Shown here in pieces: positions 52,100 to 56,520 of a stretch of DNA of 64,000 nucleotides (positions within the stretch are counted from its first letter, which is position 1; each line of letters opens with the position of its first letter). The DNA comes from Stachybotrys elegans (Eukaryota > Ascomycota > Sordariomycetes > Hypocreales > Stachybotryaceae). Made by a program: the position numbers and the translations under genes. Below the pieces are notes generated by a model. The model saw only the letters and a list, made by a program, of their open reading frames with translations, made no database searches and had not been told where the DNA came from. The DNA lies in contig JAGPNK010000007.1 in assembly GCA_020746835.1 (NCBI GenBank), forward strand, positions 930,001-994,000. Direction: 5' to 3'.

Positions 52100-53737
52100 A
52101 TGGATTACGCCAACGAGAAGCACCCTCAGCAGCTTGAGGCGGGGTTGCCGTTGCACAAGCAGCGCGAGGCTCGATGCCAATCCGAGACTCCCAACCGTCA
52201 GCCATCGACGTCGACATCTTCGCCTCTTCCTCGACTTATCCTGGCGATAGTCATGTGCTTCACCCTCAGCTTTGGCTTCGCTGTCATGGCGGGGTCCATG
52301 GTTACCTCGAGCTGGTCCTTTGGACAAGGGAATCTGATGCCATGTGACAGATCTGCTGCAGCTCGTCCTCGCCTCTCTTCCCCAGAGTTCCTTCGCAGGC
52401 TGCATCAGATTCAGCAGTTTCATGCCAAGGATCAGGAGCAGGACGAGGAGGAGCAGGTCGCAGTGATTGCCGTCGTCGAAACAATTGCCTCGGCTGCAAA
52501 TACTGTCGCTTTCTACAACAAGAGACAGGAAGACAACAGCAATGGCACCGTCAGCTCAACCACGGACGCCAGTGTTCCCGTCACGACCACCCAGACTACA
52601 GTCACCCAAGACACCACTACCATCGAAACCACCACCGTTCCGACTACGACTATCGTCACCACCACCACGACTACGTCCGTCGACGTCACCACCACGACTT
52701 CTTCCCTCTCCGAATCTACCACGGAGCAGTCCACCACACCCGTCTCGGAGCCCACTTCCGTCTCTACTGGTACGTCTACGTTGGAAGAAACTTCGTCTTC
52801 TCAAGATGATGCTTCCACTACTACTGCTACTGCTCCTTCTACTTCTACTTTTACTTCTGGTATGATCACGACCGAACCTGCCACGTCAACGCCACCTTCA
52901 TCTACAGAGAGTACGCAATCACCTGCCTCTGGTATGTCCACGACTGAAAACCACCCTCCACCATCTCTTTCTTCTTCAAGTGCCCAGGCCACTTCCACCC
53001 CGCCTCCCTCGGACTCTCCAACTTCATCCGTCCCAGGTACAATGATGACTTCCCCACGTCCATCCTCCCGATCCTCTTCCACAGTTCCTCGGGACACATC
53101 TGCCTCCCGATTGTCTTCTTCCATTTCCCCGTCCATGTCCATGTCCACGTCCTCGTCCTCGTCCTCGCCATCGTCATCGTCCTCGCCATCGTCATCCCTC
53201 CGGAGCTCGCTGCCTACCAGAACTCTCAGTAGGTCTTGATGCGAGACCTCAGCCTGATTTCTGTTGCCGTTGCGGCAATCTCTGCCGCCTTGTTGGATTG
53301 CCCATTTCCTGCGTCCCTTGTGTCTTACTTTGCGCTGCACTTTTCCTGAGGTCTCGGTCTCTTTGATTGCTATGTTTGCCGCTTATGATTAAATTCGTGA
53401 CTGATGTCTCTTGAATGCACACCTGCGACCATCCTTTCCCAATATCAGCTAACAATATTTGTTTATAGACGCGTCAGAGGTATCGTCAAGCACTCGACGA
53501 ACCGTCACCCACGGAGATGCAACAACTTCCAGCCCTGTTCCGACGACGATTACTAGCACTCTGTCCGATGGCGGTCTTGTTATTGTCACCACGACTTCGT
53601 GGGTAGCTGTCGTGCCCACTTCGCCATCCGAGGCAGACAACCCTGAGCTCCAGGACGCAGCTGTGCCGCGATTCCAGGGCAACATACTCGTCTACACCGC
53701 GCTCAGCGCCGTGGTTGGACTTGTGCTTGCCTTCTAA
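52100..53737 (+). CDS. mucin-like Ser/Thr-rich membrane protein
   Basis: Exons 52100-53228 and 53469-53737; the 240-nt intron has a GTAGGT donor, a GCTAAC branch and a TATAG acceptor. The product is 465 aa. Residues 46-70 form one hydrophobic helix (ILAIVMCFTLSFGFAVMAG) without a cleavable signal. The middle is about 280 residues of Thr/Ser/Pro with many TTT and SSS runs, probably O-glycosylated. The C-terminus ends in a hydrophobic tail (LVYTALSAVVGLVLAF) that resembles a GPI-attachment signal. Without splicing, translation stops at 53239, giving a shorter product. It is probably a cell-surface or wall protein; no catalytic domain is present. Confidence 0.72.
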
Positions 53738-54927: not shown

Positions 54928-54999
54928 AGCAATTTGGCGCAGTGGAAGCGCGCCGGGCTCATAACCCGGAGGTCCTAGGATCGAAACCTAGAATTGCTA
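54928..54999 (+). tRNA. tRNA-Met(CAT), elongator, copy 1
   Basis: 72 nt, no intron. The acceptor AGCAATT pairs with AATTGCT; the anticodon stem is CCGGG/CCCGG with loop CTCATAA; the T arm is CTAGG/CCTAG with loop ATCGAAA. Discriminator is A. A T7 terminator follows at 55005-55011. Confidence 0.95.
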
Positions 55000-55157
55000 A
55001 CCTCTTTTTTTGCGAACCCAAGCCTTGGGTTCGTGTCCTGATTAATCATCACTCCCATCTGCGAACATGATTTTCTTTTCTTTTTTTGTAAAAATTGTTG
55101 CGCTTGGCAAAGACTTGATAGGGTAAATGGCGATCTGAAAAAGTCACGTGCCACAAA

Positions 55158-55280
55158 AGCAATTTGGCGCAGTGGAAGCGCGCCGGGCTGTAAGTTCTCC
55201 TACCAGACCCAGCGAAGTGACTCACTCTAACTATCAATAGCATAACCCGGAGGTCCTAGGATCGAAACCTAGAATTGCTA
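55158..55280 (+). tRNA. tRNA-Met(CAT), copy 2, interrupted by a 51-nt intron-like insertion
   Basis: The body is identical to copy 1 except that the loop is split: CCGGGCT, then 51 nt (55190-55240), then CATAACCCGG. The insertion starts GTAAGT, has CTCTAACTATC near its 3' end and ends CAATAG, that is, a donor, branch and acceptor of a fungal spliceosomal intron. The site is 33/34, not the usual 37/38 of nuclear tRNA introns. A T5 terminator lies at 55290-55294. An alternative reading as a Tyr(GTA) tRNA with an intron at 37/38 also leaves 72 nt, but then CATA before ACCCGG would be a coincidence and the body is Met-type. Confidence 0.85.
55190..55240 (+). other. 51-nt spliceosomal-intron-like insertion in the tRNA gene
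   Basis: GTAAGT at the start, CTAAC 6 nt before the terminal TAG, and length 51 nt, similar to the shortest introns of nearby protein genes (49-54 nt). No homology to the tRNA itself was seen. Confidence 0.75.
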
Positions 55281-56448
55281 GGCATTTCCTTTTTGCTTCC
55301 TTCATTTGGCTTTTTGATGTGGTGGATGCTCTGCGAAGGTCTATCGATTTTGCACGCCTAGCTCGTTTGGTGGGGTGTTGAGATTTCTTCAAGGGCTTTT
55401 TTCTAGCTCTTGGCTTTTTTCCCCTTCAGTATCATGGATTATGGTTGTCTGGATTTGGGCCAGATGATTTGGGTTCATCACATGGACGGTCGTCCGGCTG
55501 GCAAAATAGAGTTCTCCTGTATCCCTAGGTGGTCAGACTTGACAGAGCACAAGCGTTGTCTACGCCGTCTAAAGACTGAGCATCTTCTCAAATTATGCTT
55601 CTCCAGAAACACACCCTTTGTGCGACTGGCATGCACTTCAAGACATCCCGGATGAAATCCTTGAGTAAAGATACTTAATCCCTCCTCTTCTTCTCGACTT
55701 TCGATATAAGTCAATATGGACTTTTCCCCAACGCTCGTATCTCTGCGCAACCGCAATGCAAGCGTGATTGTATGCAGCTTCGGTGCTAGCCAGAATATTG
55801 GTATGTAAGTCTCAGTAGCGAGAAAGGCTGTTCTGGTCCCATAGCCGTCCCAACCACTGATCCAATAAAAGCCTGAGCTGTGCGAGTCTCTAGGCTACAG
55901 GGGGTTAGAGGCAGATGATCTCATTCAAGATCTGAATAAGAAGATGAATTATTTGTTGGTAATTTCCTTCTTCTCCATATGTCTTTGATAAGCCCAGTTC
56001 TCCGTTATAGACAACGCCCTAAAAATGAATCGATTGGTTTGAGTTGGTAGGACGCGGGAACTAATAAAGGACGAAGGATTGTCAAAACAAACTATGTAAA
56101 TGAGGATGCCTTGGAGCTTTCTCGCAAAATCTACAGAATAATACATGACATGCCTTATCCCACGATTGAAGAGAGTGGAATTCGATAAGGGTGTCAGTCA
56201 CAAGGGAATATGAAGAAGGAGCAACAGAAACCACCGACAGAAGATGAATTCAGTTCAGCCTTTATCGCTGATTTCGAGTTTTATGAGCACTTTCCAAGCC
56301 ACGAGATTTTGCAGTAGGAAAACAACATCGAGGCCACCAAGTTGCCTGTCTAGGGTAGCCGACTGGCCGACGGCGGCATCTTGAGTTGAGGCTCATAAGT
56401 TAGCTAGTGAAGTCGACGATCCAATCACTATTAGTCATGGTGGCGTTA

Positions 56449-56520
56449 AGCAATTTGGCGCAGTGGAAGCGCGCCGGGCTCATAACCCGGAGGTCCTAGG
56501 ATCGAAACCTAGAATTGCTA
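56449..56520 (+). tRNA. tRNA-Met(CAT), elongator, copy 3
   Basis: 72 nt, sequence identical to copy 1, no intron. The first T-run downstream is T4 at 56544-56547. Confidence 0.95.

Follow-up and report, generated by a model that had tools for sequence, protein, structure and literature searches.

Spliceosomal introns have been described in several kinds of structured RNA. The U6 snRNA gene carries one in fission yeast and in other fungi (Tani & Ohshima, 1989; Canzler et al., 2016, both cited in PMC5832005), and fungal U3 snoRNA genes contain spliceosomal introns with canonical splice and branch sites (PMC5832005). In the account given there, U3 and U6 stand alone among small structured RNAs in being known as frequent hosts of an intron. 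In ascomycetes, spliceosomal introns are also found in the nuclear rDNA (Cubero et al., 2000; Bhattacharya et al., 2000, both cited in PMC11889510), typically in highly conserved regions of the 18S gene (PMC11889510). Introner-like elements of fungi are spliceosomal introns of recent gain (van der Burgt et al., 2012, cited in PMC11889510).

The introns of nuclear tRNA genes are located at position 37/38 and are cut by the SEN endonuclease (PMC3978253). Ectopic tRNA introns occur in red algae and in the Guillardia nucleomorph; these are related to the bulge-helix-bulge type, and many of the Guillardia ones have no defined motif (PMC3978253). In excerpts of PMC5832005, PMC11889510, PMC3978253, PMC8450103, PMC11782384, PMC4494063 and PMC6461891, the introns mentioned for tRNA genes are of the group I and archaeal kinds, and none is spliceosomal. 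Likewise, among the titles and abstracts retrieved from the open-licence literature, none describes a nuclear tRNA gene that has a spliceosomal intron, although this leaves its absence from print unproven.

The locus described here is in the window, by which I mean the whole stretch of 64,000 nucleotides that was analysed, part of a contig (C59) of the Stachybotrys elegans genome (43.4 Mb, 61 contigs). The original prediction noted three tRNA-Met(CAT) genes with the same body within 1.6 kb, of which the middle one alone is split, and this is confirmed (Table 1). The two intact genes are the same 72-mer, without differences, and the body of the split gene, minus its insert, matches the intact copies at 72 of 72 nucleotides. 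An A1-U72 pair and three G-C pairs beside the anticodon loop are marks of initiator tRNAs. Both are present, together with the CAT anticodon and an A54-U-C-G T-loop, in the sequence and in the RF00005 alignment. A54-U55-C56 is another initiator mark (PMC3978253). Judged by these marks, the tRNA encoded at 55158–55280 is of the initiator type, a refinement of the earlier tRNA-Met assignment.

Table 1. Features of the split initiator tRNA-Met gene and of its intact copies. Positions are those of the window, except for copy 4.
Feature	Position	Strand	Basis
Intact initiator tRNA-Met(CAT), copy 1	54928..54999	+	ARAGORN; Rfam RF00005, 67 bits
Split initiator tRNA-Met, copy 2	55158..55280	+	Rfam RF00005, 52.8 bits
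5' exon of the split copy, tRNA positions 1–33	55158..55189	+	same as nt 1–32 of copies 1 and 3
Presumed A-box region, unbroken, TGGCGCAGTGG	55165..55175	+	same in the intact copies
Insert of 51 nt between U33 and C34, an intron of the spliceosomal type	55190..55240	+	alignment with the intact copies; signature
5' splice site, GTAAGT	55190..55195	+	sequence
Branch-site motif CTAAC, branch A to intron end 10	55227..55231	+	pattern scan
3' splice site, TAG	55238..55240	+	sequence
3' exon of the split copy, starting with the CAT anticodon	55241..55280	+	same as nt 33–72 (40 nt) of copies 1 and 3
Presumed B box, unbroken, GGATCGAAACC	55259..55269	+	sequence; same in the intact copies
T5 run, likely Pol III terminator, +10 past the gene	55290..55294	+	sequence
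Intact initiator tRNA-Met(CAT), copy 3	56449..56520	+	ARAGORN; Rfam RF00005, 67 bits
Intact initiator tRNA-Met, copy 4	C23:1963845-1963916 (other contig)		same sequence as copies 1 and 3

The flanks of the four initiator copies (150–300 nt per side) show a likeness within the range of shuffled sequence, with 28 to 200 of 200 shuffles reaching the real score in 12 comparisons. Two segments of the split gene are labeled in the table as what I take to be the A box (internal Pol III promoter) and the B box, and no TTTT is found within 55158–55280. The motif TCACGTG is present upstream of the split copy, at 55144–55150. The open reading frame at 52100–53239 had no match in a protein search at E 0.001, and none in Pfam.

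In the intact tRNA, as predicted by ARAGORN, the CAT anticodon is at linear position 33, which puts the insert between tRNA positions 33 and 34. Because the shared exon parts add up exactly (32 + 40 = 72), there is only one possible placement for it, and the claim that it sits precisely between U33 and C34, in an alignment that cannot slide, is borne out. The sequence also has the GTAAGT start that had been noted, and the CTAAC 6 nt before the terminal TAG. No target-site duplication is seen around the insert in the alignment with copies 1 and 3, and its excision yields the intact initiator tRNA, letter for letter. It thus combines the features of a fungal U2-type intron, namely a GTRNGY start with GT..AG ends, a CTRAC near the 3' end, and exact restoration of the product.

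Among the 127,898 51-mers of the window, counted on both strands, 497 have GT..AG ends and 6 have a CTRAC near the end in addition, while GTRNGY, CTRAC and YAG come together in a single one, the insert itself. Across the window, the pattern GTAAGT..CTAAC..YAG has 3 occurrences, where 20 dinucleotide shuffles average 0.05, and GTRNGT..CTRAC..YAG has 15, where they average 5.45; a looser intron pattern showed no enrichment there (73 observed, 68.65 in shuffles). The branch-to-end distance of 10 recurs in 2 other window matches, and is 11 in 2 more, out of 15 rows of which some are nested. The exon bases flanking the insert, CT/C, are unlike the usual AG/G.

Two introns of protein genes serve for comparison. 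The M18 peptidase gene of the window, with an ORF that is 100% identical to a protein of S. elegans, has an 82-nt intron (GTACGC..CAG), whose splice is exact against the database protein P0002; in FAM32A, removal of a candidate intron of 63 nt (GTAAGC..CTGAC..TAG) leaves the exons in frame. Their 5' ends are GTACGC and GTAAGC, with branch sites of the CTAAT or CTGAC type. By sequence the insert is nearer to the consensus than both, and so is no copy of their style. As a side observation, protein P0094, an M18 aminopeptidase assigned to the MAG of a Methanophagales archaeon, is 72% identical to the fungal query, and may represent fungal contamination of that MAG.

Putative introns with similar signals are found in two other small RNA genes of this genome. 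One U6 snRNA gene was identified among the 47 of 2,485 candidates scored in the Rfam search (C1:4175725-4175821, minus strand; L039, about 1501–1680). It contains a 71-nt intron, GTAAGT...GCTAACTATCCTACAG, between AACGATA and CAGAGAAG, inside the ACAGAGA box, and the gene reads ...TCAAACGATA / GTAAGTGC...AAGTTCGAATGCTAACTATCCTACAG / CAGAGAAGATTAGCATGGCCCC... across it. The Rfam match aligns the 3' end of the intron as the 5' part of U6, and in this way conceals the intron. A B-box-like GTTCGAAT lies within the intron, which recalls the arrangement of fission-yeast U6, where the B box is inside the intron. The U3 snoRNA gene (L055, about 1430–1766, on C45; RF01846, 145 bits) has a 74-nt intron in its 5' part (L055 1444–1517), GTATGT...TTGCTAACAGCCTTTGCAG before GAGAATCATTTC. 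By my reading of the sequence, both are introns of the spliceosomal type.

Since U6 is essential, and its ACAGAGA box would be whole only after splicing, the U6 intron is presumably removed by the spliceosome, unless there is a second U6 copy. Transcription of U6 by Pol III is expected, and the B-box-like motif agrees with this. As the sole U6 gene found has an intron, a presumed Pol III transcript would have to be spliced here, suggesting that Pol III transcripts can probably be spliced by the spliceosome in S. elegans.

I then compared the split gene with other tRNA genes in a partial survey of the genome. A genome search with RF00005, in which 63 of 992 candidates were scored, missed the split gene. 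Three B-box patterns matched 32, 77 and 278 places, with higher counts for the reversed controls of the first and third (53 and 453). The first two lists, minus 3 and 19 places respectively that were known from RF00005, gave 85 regions, which include 2 RF00005-known places; the 278-place list is outside the survey. ARAGORN identified a tRNA in 32 of the 85 regions. The survey total is 82 tRNA predictions after removal of sequence duplicates, a partial set of which some may be false.

An intron is predicted in 37 of the 82, and in 33 of these it starts 3–5 nt after the first anticodon base; the remaining 4 introns are away from the anticodon, so some predictions may be false. Among the 33 predictions with an intron near 37/38, the split copy is the only one with CTRAC in its intron. 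Sliding of the introns kept the product given by ARAGORN, and for this reason GT-AG ends were obtained in none of the 38 rows, including the two rows of the split gene. All seven tRNA-Ala(AGC) predictions of this partial survey (L088, L100, L101, L105, L121, L126, L128) have introns of 25–40 nt near 37/38, and very short introns of 8–13 nt are present in 7 of 8 tRNA-Glu(CTC) and in 2 of 9 tRNA-Gly(GCC). The genome's own tRNA-Tyr is located at L131 63–148, on the minus strand; CGGGCTGTAA, within it, is also present in the alternative reading of the split gene.

From these sequence comparisons, I consider it fairly probable that the gene at 55158–55280 is an initiator tRNA-Met that gained a 51-nt U2-type intron in its anticodon loop, an intron most likely spliced by the spliceosome. 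Pol III would transcribe the gene, using the A and B boxes, which are both intact, and ending at the T5 run; GTAAGT and CTAAC would be recognized in the nucleus by U1 and U2; the spliceosome would excise the intron as a lariat; and the joined exons would fold and have their ends processed, to give an initiator tRNA exactly like that made from copies 1, 3 and 4. It is in this sense that I infer the transcription, splicing and function of the split copy, as well as its origin at the RNA level. That the spliceosome indeed makes an initiator tRNA in S. elegans, from a Pol III precursor spliced at 33/34, is a proposition that I would regard as evenly balanced. If true, part of the supply of start tRNA would depend on the spliceosome, and not on the tRNA endonuclease and ligase.

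The main rival is that the insert is a real spliceosomal-type intron in a dead copy, brought in by reverse splicing or repair, with Pol III transcripts that are left unspliced and a redundancy that makes this harmless. Nothing forces the split copy to work, since the three intact ones could meet the demand by themselves, and Pol III transcripts do not have the cap and the Pol II tail that help splicing. The precursor is also predicted to misfold: its minimum free energy is −32.5 kcal/mol, against −27.2 kcal/mol with the cloverleaf enforced, and in this fold the 5' strand of the anticodon stem is paired with the intron, the cloverleaf is hidden and the 5' splice site is in or beside a helix. 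The exon bases CT/C at the junctions, which differ from the usual AG/G, also count against a working copy. Against a dead copy are the perfect exons, in a gene whose flanks resemble those of the other copies no more than shuffled sequence does, the lack of a recent intron donor at up to 3 mismatches, and the U6 gene, the only one found, which would need splicing even though its expected polymerase is Pol III. The exon identity helps little on the question of function, as the exons would also have stayed unchanged under gene conversion or after a young insertion. I regard a dead copy as unlikely, although it has to be taken seriously. A further possibility is that Pol II reads the locus, as a non-coding or UTR transcript from which the intron is spliced. 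Pol II transcripts are the usual home of spliceosomal introns, and TCACGTG is found just upstream of the split copy. This motif is however not specific to the split gene, as it is present within 40 nt upstream of 3 of the 82 tRNA predictions, the other two being an intact initiator copy (copy 4, L004) and a tRNA-Thr (L011), and the A box, B box and T5 run are all intact; transcription by Pol II seems improbable. The U6 and U3 introns tilt the choice between a spliced Pol III transcript, a Pol II locus and a dead gene towards the spliced Pol III transcript. It is also hardly credible that the insert is a random piece of DNA, such as filler from end joining, that is intron-like by chance: it has no target-site duplication, and no second copy was found in the genome, as might be so for such a fragment, but the exactly bounded combination of signals is found in no other 51-mer of the window.

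The remaining alternative was already raised in the original prediction, namely that the gene encodes tRNA-Tyr(GTA) and has a 37/38 intron of the ordinary kind, a substrate of the SEN tRNA-splicing endonuclease. When introns are allowed, ARAGORN does label the split gene as tRNA-Tyr(gta) and predicts an intron of 51 nt. The intron can be slid to 37/38, and the call looks convincing, which CGGGCTGTAA, common to the split gene and to an arm of the real tRNA-Tyr, may help explain. However, a 37/38 placement needs the Tyr reading to begin with, while identity with the three intact copies puts the insert at 33/34, and the body is that of an initiator Met, as in these copies. The first pair is A1-U72, whereas the genome's real tRNA-Tyr, which carries a short intron of its own, has C1-G72, a pair that matters for TyrRS. 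The 32/I(−3) pair is present in 26 of 27 tRNA introns placeable at 37/38, the split copy apart (27 of 32 when the 5 non-placeable ones are counted); the split copy has C/A there, and no pair. In favour of the Tyr reading, five other ordinary introns also are without this pair as ARAGORN places them; 4 of these cannot be slid to 37/38, the real tRNA-Tyr included, and the fifth belongs to a placeable tRNA-Leu. In the predicted precursor, the anticodon stem of the cloverleaf has a probability of about 0.001, although the minimum-energy folds of several ordinary intron-bearing tRNA precursors also depart from the cloverleaf, so that the fold alone is a weak argument. The Tyr reading leaves GTAAGT, CTAAC, TAG and the exact restoration of a Met gene as coincidences. 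I therefore reject it as very improbable, on the grounds of the body, the absent 32/I(−3) pair and the existence of a proper tRNA-Tyr, with weak support from the precursor fold. In contrast, the claim of a spliceosomal-type intron at 33/34 that is not a normal tRNA intron survives the tests made on the sequence, that is the exact boundaries, the signature, the pair and the survey.

As for where the intron came from, a genome-wide search at up to 3 mismatches located the 51-mer, and likewise its 28-nt core, in one place only, though more diverged copies are possible. An introner-like element, which would have many similar copies, or another recent donor is rejected on this basis. Descent from the U6 or the U3 intron is also rejected: the tRNA insert and the U6 intron have GTAAGT and CTAACTATC in common, but no homology was detected, as 419 of 500 shuffles (U6) and 120 of 500 (U3), made by keeping the intron ends and shuffling the middle, score as high. 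The exon-intron junction pattern had no exact match in viral contigs or in bacterial and archaeal genome contigs, a result that is uninformative on other Stachybotrys. The perfect exons, the dissimilar flanks and the lack of a near-identical donor give no sign of a brand-new insertion; with a single assembly, the absence of a donor leaves the age of the insertion undated, and the identical exons could equally stem from recent insertion or from gene conversion. An RNA-level insertion fits better than a transposon, because of the exact boundaries and the lack of a target-site duplication. The intron would have entered the exposed anticodon loop by reverse splicing, followed by reverse transcription and recombination.

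Nuclear tRNA introns and mRNA introns are held to be separate, in their enzymes, compartments and origins, and an mRNA-type intron in a tRNA would cross this line. The tRNA would join U6 and U3 as a third small structured RNA that has been subject to intron gain. With one split copy and three intact controls of identical exon sequence, the locus is a clean case in which to ask whether Pol III transcripts are spliced without the privileged position of U6, and whether exposed RNA loops acquire introns through reverse splicing. Genes of this kind can be concealed by tRNA finders, as illustrated by the tRNA-Tyr label that ARAGORN gives to the split copy.

Compared with the known systems, the U6 introns are similar to the tRNA insert in being of the mRNA type, in a short and highly structured RNA for which Pol III is expected, and S. 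elegans has one of its own; U6 is however part of the spliceosome itself, while the host here is a tRNA, in one of four copies. The U3 introns, also found in S. elegans, have the same canonical signals in a small structured RNA, a snoRNA in that case. The rDNA introns of ascomycetes share with the insert an mRNA-type intron in a structured RNA of translation, but their hosts are rRNA genes, which are transcribed by Pol I. The SEN-type and ectopic tRNA introns, like the insert, are in the anticodon loop or outside 37/38; unlike them, the insert has GT-AG ends and a branch site, and is without the 32/I(−3) pair. Introners are multi-copy, in contrast to an insert with no second copy at up to 3 mismatches. 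What would be new is therefore the tRNA as a host of a spliceosomal intron, U6, U3 and rRNA being hosts that are already known.
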